Assembly (NCBI RefSeq): GCF_016612545.1
Contig: NZ_JAENRY010000005.1
Coordinates: 1 to 64,000 of the forward strand
Direction: 5' to 3'
Source: Streptomyces sp. MBT65
GTDB taxonomy: Bacteria; Actinomycetota; Actinomycetes; Streptomycetales; Streptomycetaceae
Length of the DNA: 64,000 bases
Shown here piece by piece: positions 31,215-42,949 of this stretch. Each line of letters begins with the position of its first letter. Within the stretch, counting starts at the first letter, position 1. The translations under genes and the position numbers were made by a program. The notes below the pieces were generated by a model, which worked only from the letters and a program-made list of their open reading frames with translations, did no database searches and had not been told where the DNA came from.

Positions 31215-32099
31215 ATGACCACCTCCCTGCTGCCCGGCCCGCTGGTCGACGACACCTGGCTCGCCGCGCGTCTCGACGATCCCCGGCTGGTCGTCCTCGA
31301 CGCCACCACGCTCCTGCCCTCACCCCGCGAGGACGGTGACCACCGCTCCGCGAGCGGGCGCGGGACCTGGGTCGAACGGCATGTCCCCGGATCGCGACAC
31401 GCCGACCTGACCGGCGACCTCTCCGACCACGACGCGCCGTACCACTTCGCCGTACCGTCCCCCGAGGCCCTCGCCGCCGCCCTGGCCGAGCTGGGCGTGG
31501 GGGAGGGCGTCGAGGTGGTCACGTACGACGGCGGCGGTGGGATCTGGGCGGCCCGCCTGTGGTGGATGCTCCGGGCGATCGGCGTACCGGCGGCAGTTCT
31601 GGACGGCGGTCTCGAAGGGTGGGAGGCAGCCGGGCGTGCGCTCGCCTCCGGCGACGACAGCGGTCCGGTGCCGGCCGTCCGCCCCGTGACACCCGTCGTA
31701 CGACCGGATCTGTGGTCCGGCATCGAGGACGTGGCCGCCATCAGTCGCGGCGAGCGCCCCGGCACCCTCGTGTGCGCGCTGCCCACCGGCGGCTACGACG
31801 GCTCCGCGCCCACCCGCTACAGCCGCCGCGGCCACATCCCCGCCAGCCGCAGCCTCCCGGGCCGGAGTCTCCTCGACGACTCCGGGCACGTCCTGCCCCT
31901 CGACGAACTCGCGGCGCGGGTCGGCGCGGTCCTCGACGCCGAGGACTCGCCGGTCGTCCTGTACTGCGGCGGCGGCATCTCGGCGGCGGGCGCCGCACTC
32001 GCGCTCACGCTGCTCGGCCGTACGGACATATCCGTCTACGACGGCTCACTGGAGGAGTGGTCCAAGGACCCTGTCAGGCCACTGGAGTCGGGGGTCTGA
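31215..32099 (+). CDS. Rhodanese-type thiosulfate/3-mercaptopyruvate sulfurtransferase
   Basis: 294 residues forming two rhodanese domains. The N-terminal one lacks the active Cys (VTYDGGGGIWAARL in its place); the C-terminal one has YCGGGISAAG with Cys251, the persulfide-carrying nucleophile. It transfers sulfane sulfur to a thiol acceptor in the cytoplasm. HVPGSRHADLTGDLSD is the conserved inter-strand motif. The CGGGIS loop fits the sulfurtransferase class. Location beside organosulfur uptake and leader peptides supports a role in sulfur assimilation or detoxification. Confidence 0.88.
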   Translation: MTTSLLPGPLVDDTWLAARLDDPRLVVLDATTLLPSPREDGDHRSASGRGTWVERHVPGSRHADLTGDLSDHDAPYHFAVPSPEALAAALAELGVGEGVEVVTYDGGGGIWAARLWWMLRAIGVPAAVLDGGLEGWEAAGRALASGDDSGPVPAVRPVTPVVRPDLWSGIEDVAAISRGERPGTLVCALPTGGYDGSAPTRYSRRGHIPASRSLPGRSLLDDSGHVLPLDELAARVGAVLDAEDSPVVLYCGGGISAAGAALALTLLGRTDISVYDGSLEEWSKDPVRPLESGV

Positions 32100-32220: not shown

Positions 32221-33327
32221 TTACCAGCACATCACCGCGGTTTCCCCCGAACCCCACGTGGAGTACAGGCGCACACGGACGAAGTAGCGGCGGCCCTTGA
32301 CGAGCCGGACCTTGAGTGTGGCGTTGTGGGGCGTTCCCCCGTCGTCCTGACCGGCGAGGAAGCGCGGTTCGCCGTCCCGTTCCTCGAAGACCACGACGAC
32401 CGTGTCGCTGTCCCCGAAGGTGCCGACGGCGTACTCGCGCGTCTGCGTCGGCTCGATGGCGAAGTCGGCCTGCTCACCCGGTCCCAGACGCAGCGGCGCC
32501 GACCGGAACGGCACCAGCTCGGCCGGCCGGGGAGGGCCGGCGGGCGGGTACCAGCGCAGGACGAACTCCTTGTCGGAGGGGGAGAGGCTGCCGTGCGGGT
32601 GCAGACCCGTGCGGTACTCCTCCGGCTCCAGGATCAGTCCCGACGCGAACGGGTACTCCATGATCGACTGCGGGTCCCAGACGGAGCCGTTGACCTCGTC
32701 CGGGTCGAGCTTGCGCAGGATGTTGAACCGCGTCCTGTCCCGGCTCCAGAAGTTCGGCGGGCCCGCCAGCTCGGCGTACACGGCCTCGTCGTCCCAGTGG
32801 ATACCGGCGAACGGGCTCTGGTGCTCGTGCAGCAGACCCAGCGCGTGCCCGATCTCGTGCAGAGCCGTGCAGCGCTGCCCGGGCACGGTCAGGTCCCAGC
32901 CGAAGTTCATGGTGCGGTCGGACAGACCGACCGTGAGAGCGTCGCGACCCACCGTCGACCAGGAGCCGTCACCGGACTGGAACCCGATGCGCAGCTCCGC
33001 CTCCGACCGGTCGCCGACCTCGGCGAAGCCGAGCCCGATGCCGAGGCCCTGCCACTCACGGAAGCACTCGCGTACGACGTCCTGCTGCTCCTTGGCACCG
33101 CCCCACGGCACCCGCCGCAGCTCGCCGGTCCCGGGCACCGGGATGACGGAGGTGTCGGTCGCGGCCGTGTTCTCGGGGTTGTCGGTGTCGAAGAAGTAGT
33201 AGTGCAGGACCGTGCCGTTGACCCACATCCGGCTGCCGCCGATGAGCGCACCGCGCCGCTCGGCGGCCAGTCCCGGTCGGAACTCCGGGGCCGGCTGCTG
33301 CGCGAGGGAGCAGTAGCGAGCGGTCAT
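32221..33327 (-). CDS. Astacin-like (M12A-type) zinc metalloprotease without signal peptide
   Basis: 368 residues. Zinc motif HEIGHALGLLHEH (H157, E158, H161, H167) and Met-turn SIMEYP (221-226) define a metzincin of the astacin/M12A kind. The N-terminal 30 residues have no signal peptide, unlike usual secreted astacins, so it probably acts inside the cell. The C-terminal ~110 residues are a beta-rich domain (YFVRVRLYSTWGSGETAVMC). Divergent from the AAA-LuxR regulator and next to two other intracellular proteases. Substrate unknown. Confidence 0.82.
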   Translation of the reverse strand: MTARYCSLAQQPAPEFRPGLAAERRGALIGGSRMWVNGTVLHYYFFDTDNPENTAATDTSVIPVPGTGELRRVPWGGAKEQQDVVRECFREWQGLGIGLGFAEVGDRSEAELRIGFQSGDGSWSTVGRDALTVGLSDRTMNFGWDLTVPGQRCTALHEIGHALGLLHEHQSPFAGIHWDDEAVYAELAGPPNFWSRDRTRFNILRKLDPDEVNGSVWDPQSIMEYPFASGLILEPEEYRTGLHPHGSLSPSDKEFVLRWYPPAGPPRPAELVPFRSAPLRLGPGEQADFAIEPTQTREYAVGTFGDSDTVVVVFEERDGEPRFLAGQDDGGTPHNATLKVRLVKGRRYFVRVRLYSTWGSGETAVMCW

Positions 33328-33370
33328 GCGACCAGATTGCCGTCGACCGTTCCCCGGCGCCTGAGTCGAG

Positions 33371-33407
33371 GGCTACTCAAGTCACCCTGTATCAAGCGTG
33401 AGTAGCC
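33371..33407. promoter_or_regulatory. Inverted repeat between metalloprotease and LuxR gene
   Basis: GGCTACTCA (33371-33379) and TGAGTAGCC (33399-33407) are perfect 9-bp arms with a 19-base spacer that includes CTGTATCAAG (33387-33396), a 10-mer repeated at 38109-38118 in the CHAT/S8 control region. Candidate operator, perhaps of the adjacent regulator itself. Confidence 0.5.
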
Positions 33408-33424
33408 GGAGTCATATCTGCGTG

Positions 33425-35317
33425 ATGACTTTCGAACAGGACGCGAAGACCCTCGAACTGCCCTGGCCGTTCACCGGCCGGGCGGACGAACTCGAGCTCA
33501 TCCGCGGCTCGTTGACGGCCGGCCGGCCCGGCATCGTGGTGACCGGCCCGGCCGGCCGGGGCAAGACCCGGCTGGTCACCGAGGCCGTCCGGGGCAGCGA
33601 CTGCGCCAAGGTCACCGGGACGCCCGAGACGCGCGGGATCGCCTTCGCCGCGTTCGCGCACCTGCTCCCCGAGAGCGTCACCCTGCACCGCGCGGTCCAA
33701 CTCCTGTCCTGCGTCCGGCTGTTGCTCGTCGACGACGCCCATCTGCTCGACGGCTCCTCGGCCGCCCTGGTCCACCAGCTCGCCGTGCACGGGCGGACCC
33801 GTCTGGTGGTCGTGGTGACCGACGGCGACCCGGTACCCGGTGCGGTGTCGCGTCTGTGGACGGGCGAACTGCTGCCGCGCCTCGCGCTGGAGCCGCTGCC
33901 CCGGGAGGAGACGGCGCAGTTGCTGGCCCTGGGCGCCGGCGGGCCGCTGGAACCCCTCACCGTGAACCGCCTGGACGGCCTCTGCCAGGGTGATCTGCGG
34001 CTGCTGCGCGACCTGTTCGGCGCGGTGCGCGAACGCGGGCTGCTGACCCGGGCGACCGACTCCGACGAGTGGACCTGGCGCGGCCCGGTACCGGTCACCG
34101 CGACGGTCCGTGAACGCACCGCGCACGTCCTCGCCCGCACCGGCCCCGAGGAGCGCGAGAACCTCGAACGCCTCGCGTTCGCCGAGCCGTTGGCGGCGCC
34201 GCTGGACGACTTCGACCTCGACGTCCTCGAGCGCCTGGAGACCGAGGCCCTGATCCACGTCGACGACCGGGGCGCCGTCCGCCTCGCCCACCCGCTGCAC
34301 GGTCCCGCGCTGCGCGCCGCGGCCGGCCGGCTCCGGGCCCGCCGACTGGCCCGCACCCCGGACCAGTGCGCCCCGGCCCTGGCGGCCGAACGGGCCGCGC
34401 TGACCGATCGCATCGACCGCACCGACGTACGCCCGCTGCCGACGCCCGTGGGGGAGTGGCTGGTGGCGGAGGGCGCACCCGTACCGGCCGGGTACGCCGC
34501 CGTCCGCGCCCGGTTCGCAAGGCTGCGCGGGGAGCTGCGCGAGGCGGCGGCCTGGGCGCGGGAGGGCTTGCGGGAGTCCCCGGGAGACCAGGCCTGCGCG
34601 GTCGAACTCGCCCTGGCCGCCGCCCAGTCGGGCGACGTCCCGGCCACCGACGAGGCGCTGGCCCGCCCCGCGTCGGACGACGCGGGCGGCTGGCTCGCGG
34701 CGGCACGGGGCGATGTGGAGACGGCGCGCGAGGCCGCGGCCGACCGCTGGAAAGAGGGTGAGGGGAGCAGCGGCCCCACCGCCGAGGACGGCAGGCCCGC
34801 CGCGTACGTCCTCTACGACGCCGTACGCCTCGGTGCTCCCGAACAGGTCGCCGGACGGCTCGCCCGACTGCCCGGCGACGGACCGGCCGTCCTCGCCCGG
34901 CACGCGGAGGCCCTGGTCGACGGGGACGGTCCCGCGCTGGACCGGGTGGCCGGGGAACTGGAGCAGCGCGGCTTCCTGCTGTTCGCGGCCGAGGCGCACG
35001 CCCAGGCCGTACGCGCGCACCGCGACCCGCGCGCCGCCCGCATGTCCCGCACCCGCGCGGTCGCCCTCGCCCGCCGCTGCCAGGGCGCCCGCACCCCGGC
35101 CCTGTCCGGCCTGGTCCTGGGCGAACTCACCGCCCGCCAGCGCCAGATCGTCACCCTCGCCGCCGCAGGCCTCAGCAACCGCCAGATCGCCGACCGCCTC
35201 ACCCTCTCCGTCCGCACCGTCGGCAACCACCTCTACAGCGCCTACACCCGCCTCGGCGCAAGCGACCGCGGCGCGTTGCCGTGGCTGGTGGAACTGCCGA
35301 CGACGCGGTCAGCCTGA
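33425..35317 (+). CDS. AAA-ATPase LuxR-family transcriptional regulator
   Basis: 630 residues. An N-terminal STAND/AAA-type ATPase has FTGRADELELI and Walker A GPAGRGKT (41-48), with Walker B-like RLLLVDDAHL. The middle is helical. The C-terminal LuxR helix-turn-helix is [20 protein letters not shown] and following (about 565-615), ending RTVGNHLYSAYTRLG. It resembles LAL-type regulators but is shorter than their usual 900 residues. The start may also be the adjacent GTG. Probably senses a signal through the middle region and controls nearby protease genes and itself; inference. Confidence 0.82.
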   Translation: MTFEQDAKTLELPWPFTGRADELELIRGSLTAGRPGIVVTGPAGRGKTRLVTEAVRGSDCAKVTGTPETRGIAFAAFAHLLPESVTLHRAVQLLSCVRLLLVDDAHLLDGSSAALVHQLAVHGRTRLVVVVTDGDPVPGAVSRLWTGELLPRLALEPLPREETAQLLALGAGGPLEPLTVNRLDGLCQGDLRLLRDLFGAVRERGLLTRATDSDEWTWRGPVPVTATVRERTAHVLARTGPEERENLERLAFAEPLAAPLDDFDLDVLERLETEALIHVDDRGAVRLAHPLHGPALRAAAGRLRARRLARTPDQCAPALAAERAALTDRIDRTDVRPLPTPVGEWLVAEGAPVPAGYAAVRARFARLRGELREAAAWAREGLRESPGDQACAVELALAAAQSGDVPATDEALARPASDDAGGWLAAARGDVETAREAAADRWKEGEGSSGPTAEDGRPAAYVLYDAVRLGAPEQVAGRLARLPGDGPAVLARHAEALVDGDGPALDRVAGELEQRGFLLFAAEAHAQAVRAHRDPRAARMSRTRAVALARRCQGARTPALSGLVLGELTARQRQIVTLAAAGLSNRQIADRLTLSVRTVGNHLYSAYTRLGASDRGALPWLVELPTTRSA

Positions 35318-35458
35318 GCGACGGGGACGGCCGTCGGCCGGGTCGCCCGCACGGCGCGATGACCGGCGGCCGGGTTTGCCTGCCTGGCGGGAACGATTTA
35401 TGGCCTGGCCTGCCTACACGGCGGGACGTTCAACAACCCGATCCGCTCACCCGACAGG

Positions 35459-38071
35459 TCACGCCGCCCCGAACGCCGTGAAAGCCCACCCCGTCGCCTG
35501 GTGCATCGCGTCCACCGGCAGAGCCGCCCGCGCGTCTCGCAGGGCCTCCGCCAAGGAGAGGCCTGTGCTGAGGCCCTTGTGCAGGGTGAGCATCAGGGGG
35601 ACCACTGCCGCGTCGTTGACCGGGGCGCTGCTCGCCACCACGCCTGCCGTGCCCAGGGGGAGCAACGCCGTGACCAGGCCCAGGAGTTCATCGGCTCCGA
35701 CCGAGGCCAGACGGGCGGTGTCGCAGCTGGAGAGGATGATGCGGTACGGGCTGCGGGCGAGGCGTTCGAAGTCGTGGACGATGAGCGGGCCGTCGGCCAT
35801 GCGGAGGGACGAGAACAGGGGGCTGTCCGCGCGGAACGTGCCGTGGGCCGCGATGTGGGCCAGGGTCGCACCGTCCAACTCGGCCAGTACCCGGGGGACT
35901 TCGGCGCCGTCGTGCTCCAGGACCGTGGGCCTGCCGTAGCGGCCGGCCAGGTCGGGGACCTCGGCGCCGCCGGTCGCGAGGCCGGGCCCGCGGACCAGGA
36001 CGTGCCGGCCGCCGGACGGCGGTTCGGTGTCCAGGGAGCGCAGCCAACTGCCCGCCGACGGCGACACACTGAGCACCCGCTCGCGCAGCGAGGGCAGCAA
36101 CGCCCAGGGAACGCGGTGGAGTCGGCCCGGCGGGACCACCACCACCGGCCCGGAGCCGAGGTGTTGAGCGGCCTCGCCGAGGAGCAGCTCCTCCAGGCGC
36201 CGGCCCGCCGCCTCCACCACCGGGAGCCTTGCCTCCGCCCCCGGATGCGCGAGCCGCCGTAGCCCCGCCTGTACGTGTTCCGCCTCGGCCATCGCCTCCG
36301 CGAGCAGGCCCGCCTCGAAGCGGCGGACCCGGCCCGCCCCGCACAGCAGGGCGTGCACCCGGCCGTCCACGACGGCGAGTTCGACCAGCCGCCCCTCGCC
36401 GAGGCGGGCCAGCAGGCGGGTCGGATCGAAGCGGTCGCCCTCGCCGGGGGCGTCCCCGCGCATATGGAGGGTGCGGGAGCGGATCTCCCGTTCCAGGCGC
36501 CGCTGTTCGCGTTCCAGGGCCGGTACCGGGCGGCCGTCCATGCGGGCCTGCTCCGCGCGGGCGGCGATCTCGCGGAACGCCGTCAGATCGGTGAGCAGCA
36601 CCGGGTCGGCGGGCGGCCGGGTGGGCGGAGTGGACAGCGCGGTCGCCCGCCAGCGCTCGCTCCACACCAACAGCCGCCGCGGGCCGCCGGAGACGAGGCT
36701 CGCGCGCTGGGCCAGCGCCGCCAGCTCGGCGCCCTGCGCGGTCGCCCGCGCCCGCAACTCCGAGGCGCCCAGGGTCGTACGGTGATCGTCCAGGACGTCG
36801 AGCCCGCGCCGGCACGCCTCCAGCACCCCGCGCCCGGAACCCGCCGCCTGCGCGCGCAACGCCTGTGCCGCCCAGCCGGTCATCCGGGCCAGCGGCGGGC
36901 CGCCGCGCCTGCTGCGGGCGGCCACCGCCAAGTGCCGCTCCGCGTCCGCCGTCCAGCCCAGTTCCAGCGCGATCCGGCCCGCGAGCAGCGAGGCCTCCGG
37001 AGCGGACGGCGAACCGAAGCCCGCCAGCCGGTCGGCCACCGCCGCGGCGTCCGCCACCAGCCGCCCCGACGCCCGCCCGGCCGCCAACCGGGCCTCGATC
37101 AGCACCAGTTGGGCATGCGTCTGCCACCAGGTGCGCCGCTGCGCGGCGAACAGCCGTACCGCCACGGCCGCGCGCGCGATCGCCCGCTGCGGATCGTCCG
37201 CGAGCCGCGCGGCCCGGGCGGCCACGAGCAGCAACTCCGCCTTGCGCGTGGACTGGCCGCCGATGCCGTCGAGCAGCCCGACCGCCGTGTCCGCGTGCGC
37301 CAGCGCCTCCCCAGCAAGACCCGCGCTCATCAGCACCTCGCAGCGGCGGATGGTCAGCATGAACGTCGGGGTGGCCAGCTTGGCGTACATCTCCTCTGCC
37401 TCGTCGAGCAGTTGGAGCGCCACCGGGATGTCCCCCGAGCGGAACGCGGCCAGCCCCCGGCTCTCCACCGCGTCCGCCTTGTCGTGCTCCTGGCCGGTGG
37501 TCTCCCACAGCGACTCGGCCGCCGTGAAGTCCGCTTCGGCCCGGTCCACCGCACCGAGCGCCAGGTGCACGGTCGCCCGCAGGGTGAGCGCCCGCGCCGT
37601 CCAGATCGTGTCGTCCACCTGCCGCAGCACGGGAATCGCCCGCCGTACGTCGTCCAGCGCCTCGGAGTGATGGCCCAGTACCCACCAGACGTACGCCCGC
37701 CGGTACAGCACCCGCGCCCGGGTCTGCCCCGTGCCCCGGGCGATGCCCCGCTCGAAGGCGGCCAGGCCCTGCCGGGTACGGCCGGCGTGCACCAACGCCA
37801 CGCCCAGTGTGCCGAGGACGTCCGCCTCCCGGTCCGCCGAATCCGCGCGGGCCGCCAGGTCACGGGCGCGCCGCAGATGACGCAGGGCGAGCCGGAGATC
37901 GCCGAAGTCCCGCTGCCAGATGCCGATCACATGGTGGGCCACGGAGGCCTGGAACGGCGTCGGATCGCCGTCGAGGACCTCCCGCGCACCGGCCAGCGCC
38001 TCGCTCGGAGCCGCGAACACCATCGGCAGGAGGTCGAGAACCGAGTCGCTTCCCGCTGTCACTCCTCCCAT
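35459..38071 (-). CDS. TPR-CHAT caspase-like protease
   Basis: 870 residues. The N-terminal ~500 are repeated helical pairs (tetratricopeptide-like: LRLALRHLRRARDLAARADS, GLAAFERGIARGTGQTRARV). The C-terminal ~350 are a CHAT domain with the caspase-type dyad His743 (HIAAHG) and Cys783 (SSCDTA). CHAT proteases are activated by partner signals bound to the repeats and cut specific proteins, as in TPR-CHAT Craspase. No signal peptide. The start may be leaderless; 38071 is preferred. Divergent from S8 peptidase and sigma genes, with which it probably acts. Confidence 0.85.
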   Translation of the reverse strand: MGGVTAGSDSVLDLLPMVFAAPSEALAGAREVLDGDPTPFQASVAHHVIGIWQRDFGDLRLALRHLRRARDLAARADSADREADVLGTLGVALVHAGRTRQGLAAFERGIARGTGQTRARVLYRRAYVWWVLGHHSEALDDVRRAIPVLRQVDDTIWTARALTLRATVHLALGAVDRAEADFTAAESLWETTGQEHDKADAVESRGLAAFRSGDIPVALQLLDEAEEMYAKLATPTFMLTIRRCEVLMSAGLAGEALAHADTAVGLLDGIGGQSTRKAELLLVAARAARLADDPQRAIARAAVAVRLFAAQRRTWWQTHAQLVLIEARLAAGRASGRLVADAAAVADRLAGFGSPSAPEASLLAGRIALELGWTADAERHLAVAARSRRGGPPLARMTGWAAQALRAQAAGSGRGVLEACRRGLDVLDDHRTTLGASELRARATAQGAELAALAQRASLVSGGPRRLLVWSERWRATALSTPPTRPPADPVLLTDLTAFREIAARAEQARMDGRPVPALEREQRRLEREIRSRTLHMRGDAPGEGDRFDPTRLLARLGEGRLVELAVVDGRVHALLCGAGRVRRFEAGLLAEAMAEAEHVQAGLRRLAHPGAEARLPVVEAAGRRLEELLLGEAAQHLGSGPVVVVPPGRLHRVPWALLPSLRERVLSVSPSAGSWLRSLDTEPPSGGRHVLVRGPGLATGGAEVPDLAGRYGRPTVLEHDGAEVPRVLAELDGATLAHIAAHGTFRADSPLFSSLRMADGPLIVHDFERLARSPYRIILSSCDTARLASVGADELLGLVTALLPLGTAGVVASSAPVNDAAVVPLMLTLHKGLSTGLSLAEALRDARAALPVDAMHQATGWAFTAFGAA

Positions 38072-38171
38072 GCTAGTGGTCCCGGGTGCGGACCTCACAG
38101 GTTTGGTGCTGTATCAAGTAGCGGTCCGGCGGCTCTGATTGACGACCGCCGCCGTAGTGGGAGGACACGCC

Positions 38172-39608
38172 ATGGCACCACAGCGATTCCACGAGCAGTT
38201 CGACCAGATCCAACGCTCGATGCCCGACATCCCCCTGGCGATGGGGCCGGACGACTCAGCCGAGTTCTTCTACGAGAAGGGCGTCGTGCTCGCCCGCGAC
38301 GGCGAGGAGGCCCGCCTCGTCGAGGACACCGTCCGCACGCACTTCACCGCCGCCCCCGACCTCACCCCGGACTCCGTGCGCCGGGCGGGCCCCGAGACCA
38401 ACCGGTCCGGCATCACCCGCATCCAGGTCGGCGACCCGGGCCAGGGCGACCGGCGCGGCGACCACGCCGTGGCGAACGCGCTGCGCGCCCTGCGTGAACC
38501 GGAGGGCCGCACCGGCCGCCGACTCGTCAGTCGCAACCACGTGGTGTCGATCGCCGTGAACGCCTGTCCCGGCGACGAACCCGTCCCCGCCCCGCGCTCC
38601 GAAGGGGCCAACCCGGCGCCCGCGGAGGCCGGTTACGACCCCGACACCGCCGTCGGCGTCCTCGTCATCGACACCGGGCTCATGCACGACTACCGGTCCT
38701 ACCCGCTGCTGGCCCACGTCCAGGGCGACCCGCAGATCAGGGAGACCGACGACGCGGGAGTGCTCCAACAGTACGTAGGACACGGCACGTTCATCGCCGG
38801 CATCGTCGCGGCCGTCTCGCCCAACACCGAGGTGACGGTCCGCAACACCCTCAACGACGCGGGCGCCATCCTCGAATCGGACTTCGGCGAGGCCCTGTTC
38901 GCCGCCGTCGACCAGCACGGCTGGCCCGACGTCATCAGCCTCTCCGCCGGCACCTCCAACGGCCGCACCGACGGACTCCTCGGCGTCGAGGGCTTCATGC
39001 AGGCCCTGCGCGGACAGCGCACCCTCCTCGTCGCCGCCGCGGGCAACAACGCCAGCGCCACCCCCTTCTGGCCCGCCGCCTACGCCGACCTGCCCGACTA
39101 CCAGGACGTCGTCCTCTCGGTCGGCGCGCTGCGCAGCGACGGCGAGTTCGGCGCCTGCTTCAGCAACCACGGCGCCTGGGTCAAGGCCTACGCCCCCGGC
39201 GAGCGGCTCATCGGCCCCCTCACCGGCTTCGACACCCCCACGCCGTACGCCTACCAGCACACCACCTACGACGCGTGCCGGTTCGGGTTCACCTACACCT
39301 GCACCTGCCAATCGCCCGCCCACAAGGGTGTGTTGAGCCAGGCCGGGGACGCCGAGCCGGGCAGCCCGGACCAGGTGACCTTCGACGGGTTCGCGCACTG
39401 GAGCGGCACCTCGTTCGCCGCTCCCGTCGCCGCCGGCATGGTCGCCGCCTTCATGACGGCGAACAAGGAGACCGACGCGCGTGCCGCCCGCGGCCAACTC
39501 CTCGCGGCCAACGCGGAGTACGCCGAAGTGCGCGGGGCGCACGTACCGGCGCTGCGCCCGCCCACCTGGCGCCCGGTCCCCGTCGTACCGCTCTCCCCTC
39601 CGGCATGA
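38172..39608 (+). CDS. Intracellular S8 subtilisin-like serine peptidase
   Basis: 478 residues with the full triad: Asp167 (VLVIDTGL), His204 (VGHGTFIAG) and Ser414 (SGTSFAAPVA), plus an oxyanion Asn near 292 (AAAGNNAS). An N-terminal ~155-residue region precedes the catalytic domain. There is no signal peptide, propeptide pattern or membrane segment, so it is likely cytoplasmic and regulated rather than secreted. A Cys cluster at 369-379 lies in a loop before the Ser. GGGAGG ribosome-binding site before the ATG. Stop overlaps a possible sigma-gene start. Part of the CHAT-subtilase-sigma module. Confidence 0.87.
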   Translation: MAPQRFHEQFDQIQRSMPDIPLAMGPDDSAEFFYEKGVVLARDGEEARLVEDTVRTHFTAAPDLTPDSVRRAGPETNRSGITRIQVGDPGQGDRRGDHAVANALRALREPEGRTGRRLVSRNHVVSIAVNACPGDEPVPAPRSEGANPAPAEAGYDPDTAVGVLVIDTGLMHDYRSYPLLAHVQGDPQIRETDDAGVLQQYVGHGTFIAGIVAAVSPNTEVTVRNTLNDAGAILESDFGEALFAAVDQHGWPDVISLSAGTSNGRTDGLLGVEGFMQALRGQRTLLVAAAGNNASATPFWPAAYADLPDYQDVVLSVGALRSDGEFGACFSNHGAWVKAYAPGERLIGPLTGFDTPTPYAYQHTTYDACRFGFTYTCTCQSPAHKGVLSQAGDAEPGSPDQVTFDGFAHWSGTSFAAPVAAGMVAAFMTANKETDARAARGQLLAANAEYAEVRGAHVPALRPPTWRPVPVVPLSPPA

Positions 39609-39613
39609 GGGCC

Positions 39614-39640
39614 GGAACCCTCCCCTCCACGGCGTACGAT
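39614..39640 (+). promoter_or_regulatory. Weak ECF-like promoter before the sigma gene
   Basis: GGAACC (39614-39619) and TACGAT (39635-39640), spacer 15. Resembles a sigma-autoregulated promoter but the spacing is short. Low certainty. Confidence 0.3.
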
Positions 39641-39667
39641 GACATGCCGTACACGAGGGGTGGCACA

Positions 39668-40243
39668 GTGGACCGTGCAGAGGTCGGCGCGCTCGTCCAG
39701 TCCGCCGTCGACGGCGACGCTGCGGCCTGGAAGGCGCTCGTGGAGGGTCTGAGCCCCCTGGTCTGGTCCGTGGTGCGCGCCCACCGGCTCTCCGACGCCG
39801 ACGGCCACGAGGTGTACCAGACCGTGTGGTTGCGCTTCTCCCAGCACTTGCGGCGCATCCGGGAACCGGAGAAGGCCGGCTCCTGGCTGGCGTCCACCGC
39901 GCGCAACGAATGCCTGAAGGTGATCAAGAGCCTACGGCGGCTGATGCCCACGGACGATCCCCAACTCCTCGACCGCGTCAGCGAGGAGCGCACCCCCGAG
40001 CAGTCGCTGATCGACTCGGAGGAGGCGGCCTCCGACGCCGAGCGCATCCGGCGGCTGTGGCAGGAGTTCGAGGAACTGGGCGAGCGGTGCAGGCAGTTGC
40101 TGCGGGTGCTGATGGCCTCGCCGCCGCCCAGCTATCAGGAGGTGTCCGCCGGTCTGGGGATCGCCGTCGGCAGCATCGGCCCGATGCGCCAGCGCTGCCT
40201 GCGCCGGCTGCGGGCCCGACTCGACGCCCGGGGGGCGGTGTGA
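39668..40243 (+). CDS. Sigma-70-family RNA polymerase sigma factor
   Basis: 191 residues with region 2 (SPLVWSVVRAHRLSDADGHE, then VYQTVWLRFSQHL) and region 4 helix-turn-helix (SYQEVSAGLGIAVGSIGPMR). Group-4-like in size. I chose the GTG at 39668 behind AGGGGTGG; ATG 39605 (overlapping the S8 stop) and ATG 39644 are alternatives. It directs RNA polymerase to an unknown regulon. Co-translated with the small acidic protein that follows (GTGA), the usual arrangement for a sigma factor and its inhibitor. Confidence 0.87.
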   Translation: MDRAEVGALVQSAVDGDAAAWKALVEGLSPLVWSVVRAHRLSDADGHEVYQTVWLRFSQHLRRIREPEKAGSWLASTARNECLKVIKSLRRLMPTDDPQLLDRVSEERTPEQSLIDSEEAASDAERIRRLWQEFEELGERCRQLLRVLMASPPPSYQEVSAGLGIAVGSIGPMRQRCLRRLRARLDARGAV

Positions 40244-40791
40244 ACGGCATGCACGACGACGGACCCGACGCGTTCGACGCCTTCGGCCAGGACCCCTTCG
40301 ACGACGAGGAGTTCGACGACCAGGAGGGCGAACAGGGCGACGACGGCGGGGAGTTCGACGACGCGCTCCTGGAGGAGGAGCTGCGCCAGGCGGCCGCCGT
40401 CCTGGACCCGGTCCCCGCCGAGCTGCGCCAACTCGCCATGGACGCCTACGCGTTCCACGACCTGGACGGCCGGCTCGCGGAGCTCACCTTCGACTCCCTG
40501 GTCGACGCGATCCCGATCAGAGGAGCCACGGACGTCCCCCGCATGCTCACCTTCACCGCGGGCGCCCTCAGCATCGACGTGGAGGTGACCAGCGAGGGCC
40601 TGATGGGCCAGGTGATGCCGCCCCAACCGGCCGGCATCGAGATCCTCGGCGGCTCCCAGGCGCTGCGTCCCCCCACCCTCACGGCCGACGCCATGGGTCG
40701 CTTCACCGGCGACACGCCACCGACCGGCCCCTTCGCGCTACGGCTGCGGGCCGGCGGGGAGGTCGTCGTCACGGAGTGGCTGCGGGCCTGA
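40240..40791 (+). CDS. Acidic sigma-linked protein, candidate anti-sigma
   Basis: 183 residues. The first ~45 are very acidic (DPFDDEEFDDQEGEQGDDGG). A short helical piece follows (PAELRQLAMDAYAFHDLDGRL), then a beta-rich C-terminal half (LSIDVEVTSEGLMGQVMPPQ, then PTGPFALRLRAGGEV). No membrane segment and no zinc-binding HxxxCxxC of ZAS anti-sigma factors. Overlaps the sigma stop by four bases. The AELTFDS segment and gene order recur, as I recall, beside sigma genes of actinobacteria. Role as inhibitor or adaptor is inference. Confidence 0.65.
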   Translation: MNGMHDDGPDAFDAFGQDPFDDEEFDDQEGEQGDDGGEFDDALLEEELRQAAAVLDPVPAELRQLAMDAYAFHDLDGRLAELTFDSLVDAIPIRGATDVPRMLTFTAGALSIDVEVTSEGLMGQVMPPQPAGIEILGGSQALRPPTLTADAMGRFTGDTPPTGPFALRLRAGGEVVVTEWLRA

Positions 40792-40845: not shown

Positions 40846-42069
40846 CTACCAGGTCACCGGCAAGGTCTGCGGCCCCCGGATCATGGTCTTCCGGCGCCAG
40901 ACGATCTCCTCGGCGGGCACGGCGAGTTGGAGCCCCGGGAGACGGTCCAGCAGGGTGTCGACGAGGAGTTCGGTCTGGAGCCGGGCCAGTACGGCGCCGG
41001 TGCAGTAGTGCGCGCCGTTGCCGAGGGCCAGGTGCGGGTTGGGATCGCGGTCGACGTCGATGCGCTCCGGGTCCGGGAACACGGCCGGGTCGCGGTTCGC
41101 GGCGAGATAGGAGACGTAGACCGGGTCGCCCGCGCTGATGCGCAGACCGTGCAACTCGACGTCCTCCAGGGCGATCCGGGCCAGGCCGACCGAGGAGCGG
41201 TGCGGGATGTAGCGCAGGAGTTCGTCCAACGCGGCGTCCCTGCACTCGGGTTGGCCGCGCAGTCGCTCCAGCAGTTCGGGGCGGGTGAGCATCAGGTAGA
41301 GCATCTGGCCGCAGTTGTGGGTGACCGCCTCGCCGCCGATCTGCAGCGGGCCCGCCACCCCGGCCGCCTCCGGCTCACTGATGTCGCCCCGGGCCACGGC
41401 GTTGCCGAGCAGGGAGTACACATCGGTGCCGTCGCTGTCGGCGCGGGCGCGGATGGTGTCGGTGATCCACGCGTACATGCCGTTCTTGGCGCGGTCGGCG
41501 GCCTCGGCGCCGCCGGACGTGGAGATGATCTGCCGCGTCCAGGCGTGCACCTGGTCCCGGTCCTCGGCGGGCACCCCCATGACCTCGCTGACCACGGTGA
41601 TCGGGAAGGGCTCCAGGACCCGCTCGATCAGATCGGCCGGGGGCCCGTCCGCCACGACGCCGTCCACCAGCGCGTCGAGCAGTGACTGCGCCCGGGGCCG
41701 CAGCCGCTTCATCGCGCCGACCGTGAACGCGCCCGCGATCGCCTTGCGCAGCCGGTTGTGGTCCGGCTGGTCGGCGAACGCCAGTGACCCCGGGCGCGGC
41801 TTGAAGTGCGGGGCCATGCGCGTCACTTGACGCGTGGTGACCTCCGCGCGGCCGAACCGTGGATCGTTGGTGATCATCTTCACGTCGTCGTAGCGGGTGG
41901 CCAGCCACGCCCAGCCCTCGCCGTGCGGCAGCCGGATCCGGTTCAGCGGGCCCTCGCGCATCAGTTCCGCGAGGACCGGGTCGAACTCCGTCCCGGTCAG
42001 GTCGAGCGGGGGCCAGTCCCGGACGGGGGGCGGGGCCTGGCCGGTCAGCGTGGTGGTCTCCTCGGTCAT
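40846..42069 (-). CDS. Cytochrome P450 with unusual I-helix
   Basis: 407 residues. Heme ligand Cys356 sits in LGNGAHYCTG (usually FGxGxHxCxG; Phe is replaced by Leu). ExxR is ELLR (283-286). The I-helix reads GGEAVT (245-250); aligned to AGHETT, the acid-alcohol pair is replaced by Ala-Val. This suggests altered oxygen activation, as in some coupling P450s. RWAPE-type details and substrate are unknown. No ferredoxin or biosynthetic core gene is adjacent; the upstream neighbour is an N-formylglutamate amidohydrolase. Confidence 0.85.
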   Translation of the reverse strand: MTEETTTLTGQAPPPVRDWPPLDLTGTEFDPVLAELMREGPLNRIRLPHGEGWAWLATRYDDVKMITNDPRFGRAEVTTRQVTRMAPHFKPRPGSLAFADQPDHNRLRKAIAGAFTVGAMKRLRPRAQSLLDALVDGVVADGPPADLIERVLEPFPITVVSEVMGVPAEDRDQVHAWTRQIISTSGGAEAADRAKNGMYAWITDTIRARADSDGTDVYSLLGNAVARGDISEPEAAGVAGPLQIGGEAVTHNCGQMLYLMLTRPELLERLRGQPECRDAALDELLRYIPHRSSVGLARIALEDVELHGLRISAGDPVYVSYLAANRDPAVFPDPERIDVDRDPNPHLALGNGAHYCTGAVLARLQTELLVDTLLDRLPGLQLAVPAEEIVWRRKTMIRGPQTLPVTW

Positions 42070-42127
42070 GCCGTCCACCCTCGTACGCTTCCGGCCGCCT
42101 GTCCTGCGGGGCTGCTCCAGCCGGAGG

Positions 42128-42949
42128 TCAGTCGCTCACGGTGGTCACCAGCGCCGCCAGCGCGGCGGCGAGCCGGGCCACGCCGGGGCCGTCGGCCGGG
42201 CCGCCGGGCTCCGTCATGTAGGTGTCCCGGCGGATCTCCACCATCAGGGCGCCGACGGCCGGCTCCGTGCCGTAGAACTCCAGCGGGACGTAGACCCCCC
42301 GGAACGGGCTGTCGAGCCCGGTCTCCCCGCATTCCGCGAACGCTTCCCGGGCCGCCGACAGCAGTGCGGGCGGGGTGTGGAAGGGGTCGGTGCCCAGGCA
42401 GACGGCCGGGCGGGGGTCGGTGCCGTGCAGTTCGTAGGGGAGCGCGGCGGTGGGGTAGGAGTGCAGGTCGACGAGGACGGCCCGGCCGGTCGCGGCCAGC
42501 CGGTCGGCGACGGCCTCCGTCATCGCGCGGGCGTACGGGCGGAAGTAGCGCTCGACCAGCGGCTCGGGGTCGTGGTCGGCGGGCCGTAGGTCGGCGTGGT
42601 GCGTGGTGCGGGTGTAGACCGCGCCCATGCCCACGGAGAGCATCTCCTCCCGCTCGTCCGGGAAGCGTTCCGGATCGACGACCAGGCGTGAGAGCCGGTT
42701 GACGAACCGCCACGGCGCGACGGCACACGCGCGTACTGCCTCGGCGGCGATCCGGGCGGTGTGGCTGTCGGTGATGTGGTCCAGTTCGCGCTCGAGCGCC
42801 GGGTCGTCCAGGAGGAGGTCCGCGCGGACGTCGGCCGGTATCTCCCGCGCGGAGTGCGGCACATGGAGGATCACGGGCGAGTCGGCGGCGCCGGGCAGCA
42901 GCTCGAAGGACGGCGAGGAGGGCGAGGACGGCGCGGAGGGTGGGGACAC
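42128..42949 (-). CDS. N-formylglutamate amidohydrolase-family protein
   Basis: 273 residues. ILHVPHSAREIP near residues 27-38, DHITDSHT, RFVNRLSRLVVDPERF and VLVDLHSYPTA are the conserved metal-binding blocks of the family. Reaction: hydrolysis of N-formyl-L-glutamate to formate and glutamate in histidine degradation, or a related amide. No histidine-utilisation genes accompany it. GTG start behind GGGAG; the first 14 residues are low-complexity Ser/Pro. 58 bases upstream of the P450 gene, probably co-transcribed. Confidence 0.83.
   Translation of the reverse strand: MSPPSAPSSPSSPSFELLPGAADSPVILHVPHSAREIPADVRADLLLDDPALERELDHITDSHTARIAAEAVRACAVAPWRFVNRLSRLVVDPERFPDEREEMLSVGMGAVYTRTTHHADLRPADHDPEPLVERYFRPYARAMTEAVADRLAATGRAVLVDLHSYPTAALPYELHGTDPRPAVCLGTDPFHTPPALLSAAREAFAECGETGLDSPFRGVYVPLEFYGTEPAVGALMVEIRRDTYMTEPGGPADGPGVARLAAALAALVTTVSD

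Follow-up and report, generated by a model that had tools for sequence, protein, structure and literature searches.

The window analysed here is a stretch of 64,000 nucleotides from Streptomyces sp. MBT65 (contig NZ_JAENRY010000005.1, positions 1 to 64,000), which lies in a genome of 11.25 Mb. We focus on six genes in this window, encoding an AbsR1 family protein, an AbsR2 family regulator, a TPR-CHAT caspase-like protein, an S8 subtilase, an extracytoplasmic function (ECF) sigma factor that we call SIG, and its acidic partner, ACID. A first-pass annotation of this DNA had described them as three intracellular proteases connected to an AAA-LuxR regulator and a sigma factor, and all six genes are present where it had placed them, with domains backed by Pfam and NCBIfam. 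As detailed below, four of the six form a set that recurs across the Actinomycetes, and a single predicted bipartite promoter precedes both the operon containing SIG and the absR2 gene. The features of the locus are as follows.

32221-33327, minus strand: AbsR1 family protein with a metzincin-like zinc motif HEIGHALGLLHEH (NCBIfam NF050131, 716 bits against a cut-off of 650)
33388-33414, plus strand: predicted SIG-dependent promoter of absR2 (-35 block TGTATCA at 33388-33394, N16, -10 block GTCA at 33411-33414)
33425-35317, plus strand: AbsR2 family AAA-LuxR (LAL) regulator (NCBIfam NF050132, 1031 bits against a cut-off of 850)
33398-35317, plus strand: longer AbsR2 frame, beginning with GTG
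35459-38098, minus strand: TPR-CHAT caspase-like protein (Pfam CHAT 1.5e-25, and TPR_12; His752/Cys792)
38110-38136, plus strand: predicted SIG-dependent promoter of S8-SIG-ACID (TGTATCA at 38110-38116, N16, CTCT at 38133-38136)
38172-39608, plus strand: S8 subtilase (Pfam Peptidase_S8 4e-18; D167/H204/N292/S414)
39668-40243, plus strand: ECF sigma factor SIG (Sigma70_r2 2.5e-9; TIGR02937 3.8e-18)
40240-40791, plus strand: ACID, acidic partner of SIG (acidic tail, two helices, CarboxypepD_reg-like beta-sandwich)

The genes for S8, SIG and ACID look like a single operon, in which the SIG stop and the ACID start overlap by 4 bases; the CHAT and S8 genes are divergent, and absR1 and absR2 likewise. 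SIG and ACID were missed by gene finding based on GC content, and both were placed by reading the DNA. For AbsR2 the start ATG 33425 is likelier than GTG 33398, because the former comes after the promoter, and GTG 38062 is a possible true start of the TPR-CHAT protein. The Pfam scores are 90.7 bits for CHAT, 66.2 for S8, 27.3 for Astacin (AbsR1), 47.1 for GerE (AbsR2) and 37.3 for Sigma70_r2. A CGTACnATG block ahead of SIG (window 39633-39641), kept in 12 Streptomyces-type loci, may be a second, internal promoter of the operon.

CHAT, S8, SIG and ACID recur across the Actinomycetes, and the set is not due to chance. ACID was detected in 68 of the 296 genomes of our class sample (37 of 114 genera) and the CHAT domain (PF12770) in 156 of the 296. 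All 68 ACID genomes have CHAT, versus 88 of the 228 without ACID (lists compared by eye; Fisher 1.5e-23, a value that ignores shared ancestry), so the rare co-occurrence that the first-pass annotation had named as fatal to its idea was not seen. We retrieved the DNA around each of the 74 ACID matches beyond the window, giving 75 loci with the window itself, and subjected their frames to iterated profile searches. SIG was found in 72 of these 75 loci, and is thus closer company for ACID than CHAT or S8. Outside family f19, the fetched stretch contained CHAT in 49, S8 in 46 and both in 43 of 57 loci; among the 42 such stretches of at least 16 kb, 39 had CHAT and 36 had S8. The gene order varies, including CHAT<S8>SIG>ACID>, S8>SIG>ACID>CHAT>, SIG>ACID>S8<CHAT>, SIG>ACID>CHAT>S8<, SIG>ACID>S8>CHAT> and others, with single rows blurred where the SIG profile settled on an incorrect frame or stretch (e.g. 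L031, L032, L065 and L074). Three loci (L069, L085 and L045) have ACID and S8 with no detectable SIG in the fetched stretch.

The set is physically split in the 18 genomes of family f19, where SIG-ACID occurs with neither S8 nor this CHAT in the fetched stretch and a CHAT protein is encoded somewhere in each genome. In all 15 readable loci a long TPR-CHAT frame lies divergently beside S8, elsewhere from SIG-ACID; two of the remaining three CHAT loci are at a contig end, and one is a different CHAT. Since the set is shuffled and split yet retained, it is best read as a functional set. In a sample of 121 Streptomyces genomes, whose genus label was inferred from named relatives, ACID is present in 35 of the 36 genomes with a CHAT orthologue, and the contig ends there in the other one. 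Of the 80 loci with names attached, 79 are from Streptomyces and nearly all have the same genes, the closest named match of the window SIG being from S. prunicolor (98%).

The catalytic motifs had been described as intact, and the alignments bear this out. Counting only S8 frames of at least 330 aa and CHAT frames of at least 600 aa, the S8 residues Asp167, His204, Asn292 and Ser414 are conserved in 46 of 46 aligned homologues, and the CHAT residues His752 and Cys792 in 45 of 46, the remaining row having a gap there; the zinc motif of AbsR1 is also present. About 165 residues precede the catalytic Asp of S8, whose best sequence matches in the PDB include intracellular serine proteases, ranked below AK.1 protease and CylA. 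A simple hydropathy scan found no hydrophobic N-terminus in any of the six window proteins, the highest 19-residue mean within the first 70 residues being 1.36 (CHAT), in agreement with the earlier claim that none of the three proposed proteases carries an export signal. In an AlphaFold2 model of the TPR-CHAT protein the TPR array is confident and the CHAT half is poor, large parts having a predicted local distance difference test score (pLDDT) below 50; this model was left out of the fold search because of its low pLDDT.

The promoter of an autoregulated ECF factor typically consists of two short blocks with a fixed spacing, located before the operon of the ECF factor. When the two divergent intergenic regions of the Streptomyces loci were aligned, one common element was found, TGTATCA, and the predicted promoter is TGTATCA-N16-[C/G]TC. 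With one flanking base on each side, the TGTATCA element has two copies in the 64 kb window, exactly those of the two promoters. Over all 75 loci, CTC or GTC follows 42 of the 52 TGTATCA copies after 16 bases. In the 63 loci outside the Streptomyces group (with which L041, of another family, was grouped in this comparison), CTC stands at spacing 16 for 21 of 30 copies, versus 0-4 copies at each of 19 other spacings (8 to 27); counted by locus, the spaced pair occurs in 20 of the 63, and any other spacing in 0-4 loci. Of these 21 sites, 19 are followed in the same orientation, at a distance of up to about 1 kb, by S8, SIG, ACID or AbsR2, and SIG is closer to the window SIG in the loci bearing the site (Mann-Whitney p 0.0017). 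The standard site is also present at three f19 SIG loci (L067, L077 and L086).

Within Streptomyces the site is positioned with great regularity: it precedes S8 in all 35 module-bearing genomes with that region assembled, and absR2 in all 31 genomes with a CHAT orthologue and absR2. Among the named loci it was found before S8 at 73 of 79 (5 without, 1 at a contig edge) and before absR2 at 56 of 58 (1 without, 1 at an edge). Across the 121 Streptomyces genomes there are 108 pattern matches in the 36 module-bearing and 41 in the 85 module-free genomes (hand count), and the corresponding numbers for a reversed control pattern are 117 and 222. AbsR2 is unlikely to be the reader of the promoter, since the site persists in loci without absR2 (e.g. 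L035 and L037). We strongly infer that SIG recognises TGTATCA-N16-[C/G]TC.

Further matches to this pattern were found away from the module. With the ending CTCT and at most one mismatch, there are 14 matches in the window genome and 8 in a close relative; besides the S8 site, two look alike in both genomes, one of them inside a frame (L124), and a third pair is similar. A one-mismatch copy is kept at G000:C363:1236-1262 in the window genome and G360:C1:4773710-4773736 in the relative, and of the further matches in the window genome one is the L124 match and another lies on contig C15. A TetR-family-like gene (L119-L123; G000:C153:8476-8502 in the window genome) has a palindrome CGGACCGCGGTCC together with a pattern match 31-40 bases upstream of its predicted start in five module-bearing genomes, and a sixth, G399, shows a comparable match. 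This gene class was not counted as a SIG target, as it has its own palindrome.

In module-bearing Streptomyces, the pattern also precedes a short G-rich, non-coding stretch that lies outside the module (L105-L118, e.g. at about 4080 in L105 and about 4057 in L111, both on the minus strand). A T- or A-rich stretch lies upstream of the promoter, and the G-rich stretch contains a strong GC hairpin as well as ACGGGGGA-like units. The promoter stands directly ahead of such a stretch in 18 of the 36 module-bearing genomes, of which 14 were read (some with fewer than three exact units) and four assigned by coordinates; a 19th (G354) was not confirmed. However, we ruled out the idea that the repeat RNA is specific to the sigma factor, because arrays of at least three ACGGGGGA units are found in 72 of the 121 Streptomyces genomes, module-free ones included (the reversed control pattern gives 2). 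Such arrays resemble an RNA or leader element of general occurrence in Streptomyces. The window's own genome has no array of three ACGGGGGA units, and in the 26 module-free genomes with a pattern match none was seen by eye beside an array among the arrays listed. A search of 6 of the 14 G-rich loci against Rfam gave two matches far below threshold, neither of them at the RNA.

SIG is a protein of 191 aa with sigma2 and sigma4 and without a long extension (TIGR02937, 65.7 bits against a cut-off of 42.9). Judged by gene context as published, it very likely belongs to group ECF54, as the neighbours of that group (a subtilase, CHAT and a carboxypeptidase-type domain) are present around it; we found no SIG relatives in viral contigs. 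A potential ACID start codon overlaps the SIG stop in 70 of the 80 named loci. The window's ACID has no Pfam family match, but CarboxypepD_reg is hit by 16 members of a diverse set of 29 (E<=0.1, best 8.2e-5). Its AlphaFold2 model (mean pLDDT 76.4, predicted template modelling score 0.57) consists of an acidic unstructured tail, helices at 33-51 and 57-71, and, over 98-175, a beta-sandwich modelled for the most part with confidence. The long tail is found in Streptomyces ACIDs, and many others start within a few residues of the core. Foldseek returned nothing at E<=0.001, and the top VIA-align rows (Z 7.4, root mean square deviation 2.8, 73 aligned residues) are tied with unrelated proteins, so that the structure searches gave no confident fold relative and leave a beta-sandwich only.

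The astacin-like and AAA-LuxR proteins are the named AbsR1/AbsR2 pair, an identification based on both window proteins scoring above the NCBIfam equivalog cut-offs. The AbsR1 counterpart in S. coelicolor, SCO6992, showed no protease activity when assayed, and beta-glucuronidase activity has been published for it (PMC9705864). Therefore, of the three proteases originally proposed, CHAT and S8 are well supported and the metzincin-like protein is not. Of 54 AbsR1 matches, 19 show no HExxHxxGxxH in their best aligned stretch, and one is short. Nor is a set made of all three supported: the 75 fetched stretches of the class sample include 8 with AbsR1 and 10 with AbsR2, so the pair is accessory to the core, and the astacin gene was ruled out as a core member. 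In Streptomyces, AbsR2 is nearly bound to the module, being present in 31 of the 36 genomes with a CHAT orthologue versus 1 of the 85 others, a fragmented assembly of about 1420 contigs. AbsR2 is a published repressor of actinorhodin and undecylprodigiosin; according to PMC9705864 and PMC9628970, AbsR2 (SCO6993) represses actII-ORF4 and redD, and it leaves a footprint on its own promoter from -54 to -37. The end of the published footprint sequence, CGCCTGAGTC, sits immediately upstream of the -35 block in the window.

The gene grouping is known in part, as the ECF54 neighbourhood and as absR1/absR2, which partly answers the question raised in the first-pass annotation of whether the set already has a name. 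The ECF54 neighbourhood in print, an ECF sigma factor next to subtilase, CHAT and 'carboxypeptidase' proteins (PMC8999054), resembles ours. However, the present locus adds a specific promoter and absR2 as a likely target, and we trace the 'carboxypeptidase' to the beta-sandwich protein ACID, whereas the review assumes that there is no anti-sigma factor. ACID is very likely this 'carboxypeptidase'; members of its family match the non-catalytic CarboxypepD_reg, and no feature points to a peptidase. SCO6992/SCO6993 show the same divergent layout as the window (PMC9705864 and PMC9628970), and the tie to a sigma module is added by our analysis; the main texts of these two papers contain no occurrence of SCO6994, SCO6995 or SCO6996. 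From shared annotation and locus numbers, we infer that SCO6992-SCO6996 is this locus in S. coelicolor. PMC2936110 and PMC9739823 term SCO6996 a sigma factor, and state that the SCO6995 mRNA is AdpA-dependent and that SCO6995 expression reduces antibiotic production.

The Craspase/CASP system (Cas7-11, Csx29, Csx30 and CASP-sigma; PMC10028731) likewise combines a TPR-CHAT protein, an ECF-like sigma factor and a partner protein, and as in Craspase, our TPR array is fused to a CHAT domain with a His/Cys dyad; the sequence match between the CHAT domain and the Craspase protease is weak (E 0.046-0.053). Our locus differs in the additional S8 and in an ACID that matches CarboxypepD_reg. In that system Csx30 inhibits CASP-sigma, and by analogy ACID is a candidate for such an inhibitor of SIG. 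No Cas7-11 was found beside the module (Pfam on 19 locus and flanking proteins, PADLOC on 16), the sole Cas-type match being a CARF3 model over the helix-turn-helix (HTH) region of AbsR2, and positions 24000-50000 contain no close direct repeats of at least 22 bases, as in an array of clustered regularly interspaced short palindromic repeats (CRISPR). The notion of a protease-sigma link without CRISPR is supported, as the four core genes co-occur and S8 and absR2 share a promoter. EACC2-caspase systems resemble our set in the genetic linkage of a caspase-like protein to an ECF sigma factor, but have a DUF1822 TPR protein and another domain set in the published description (PMC8195603); the accessible text of a survey of conflict systems (PMC7159879) contains neither 'sigma' nor 'CHAT'. 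Relative to the ECF54 review, our analysis contributes the promoter, a connection to AbsR2, a new assignment for the 'carboxypeptidase' and the observation that the set can be split, the parts having been named separately before.

Taken together, we propose that the core is a cytoplasmic, protease-gated, self-amplifying switch of the ECF54 kind with AbsR2 among its outputs, a reading to which we give an about even chance of being right. SIG would read TGTATCA-N16-[C/G]TC and amplify its own S8-SIG-ACID operon, and in Streptomyces it would also turn on absR2; the amplification of both by SIG is strongly indicated. Anti-sigma genes often sit in autoregulated sigma-factor operons. Its position, possible co-translation and autoregulation make ACID a candidate soluble anti-sigma factor or cleaved partner, and ACID, co-translated with SIG, might keep it inactive until removed by CHAT or S8. 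The TPR-CHAT protein, divergently transcribed and outside the loop, would be the sensor protease: a signal on the TPR array would activate CHAT, which would cut ACID, or activate S8 to cut ACID, so that SIG is released, and AbsR2 would then dampen the antibiotic activators. An AbsR2 output fits both the repression of antibiotic activators by AbsR2 and the lower antibiotic production on SCO6995 expression. A more specific version, modelled on Craspase, is a rather doubtful extension: in it, TPR-CHAT would sense a cytoplasmic signal and cut an anti-sigma ACID, and the freed SIG would drive S8 and AbsR2. In roughly one half of the sampled Streptomyces species that carry the module (the window genome not among them), SIG would in this version also drive the short G-rich non-coding RNA with ACGGGGGA-like repeats.

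Several observations weigh against the proposed switch. Although the core element has two copies in the window versus 0.21 expected, two copies were reached in 3 of 100 shuffles. The pattern total in module-bearing Streptomyces genomes (108) is not above that of the reversed control (117), so it is the location of the sites and the contrast with module-free genomes that carry the case for the promoter. Moreover, the exact promoter is missing from the fetched stretch in 43 of the 63 loci outside the Streptomyces group, including 15 of the 18 f19 loci, and TGTATCA occurs in none of the 18 f19 CHAT loci; in loci without the exact promoter the specificity of SIG must differ, or the motif belongs to another regulator. 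Alignments inspected by eye revealed no motif shared between the f19 promoters of CHAT-S8 and those of SIG. A conserved TACGAT-like block before SIG is possibly a separate promoter, and at six loci beyond the Streptomyces group SIG, ACID and CHAT are present but S8 is missing from the fetched stretch, which measures about 10.5 kb in two cases. Finally, ACID has no recognised anti-sigma domain, and ECF54 has been treated as lacking an anti-sigma factor (PMC8999054).

Beyond the module, the flanking genes of the window are the following.

31215-32099, plus strand: sulfurtransferase (rhodanese), left neighbour of AbsR1
40846-42078, minus strand: P450, right of ACID
42128-42949, minus strand: N-formylglutamate amidohydrolase family protein, right of the P450

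Near the module, 7 of the 75 loci (the window, L056, L060, L072, L088, L089 and L104) carry a sulfurtransferase (rhodanese) gene, and 75 of the 80 named loci an N-formylglutamate amidohydrolase-family gene.

Other explanations of the set have to be weighed against the proposed switch. The proteases may act on SIG itself and keep its level low with no anti-sigma factor involved, ACID being a scaffold or cofactor. Proteolysis of SIG is the published proposal for ECF54 (PMC8999054), and it accords with the lack of a known anti-sigma domain in ACID. However, the proteolytic 'carboxypeptidase' of that review is likely ACID, with its non-catalytic CarboxypepD_reg matches, and SIG keeps tighter company with ACID than CHAT or S8 does. 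We regard this explanation as possible and on the unlikely side. Less probable still is that S8 is the main effector, with CHAT activating an S8 zymogen in the manner of caspases, S8 degrading cell proteins in development or death, and SIG-ACID tuning its amount. Such a role would suit the divergent pairing of CHAT and S8, which holds even with SIG-ACID at a different place (15 of 15), the long segment ahead of the catalytic Asp of S8 and the AdpA dependence of the SCO6995 mRNA in S. coelicolor, but the six loci without S8 speak against it.

The first-pass annotation had also suggested a defence circuit, and an anti-phage or abortive-infection system now appears improbable. Apart from the weak match of CHAT to the Craspase protease, it is favoured by the match of S8 to a subtilase model of PADLOC-DB 2.0.0 (1.2e-8; IetS 0.0098), where the HTH region of AbsR2 has its CARF3-type match (8.8e-9), all of these being single-profile matches and not calls by system rules. 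On the other hand, CHAT, SIG, ACID and AbsR1 have no PADLOC match, the ten flanking proteins give one match, to an oxidoreductase model, and the flanking genes look like metabolism and transport. ACID, moreover, matches nothing in phages and a single 'plasmid' record, which is of chromosome size, and there are no close direct repeats around the module. We therefore dropped a defence island as the default reading. That the genes are neighbours merely by chance or shared ancestry is very improbable; the near-uniform gene content of the named loci could be explained in this way, but the shuffled order across families, the retention of the split set in f19, which contradicts it, and the promoter common to the set could not.

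The switch that we favour would make of an annotated sigma group a circuit in which the promoter and a candidate inhibitor are named and the output, AbsR2, is known. If our proposal is true, it would unite the separate reports on SCO6992, SCO6993, SCO6995 and SCO6996, and antibiotic-producing bacteria would possess a caspase-like, protease-gated transcription switch that needs no CRISPR.

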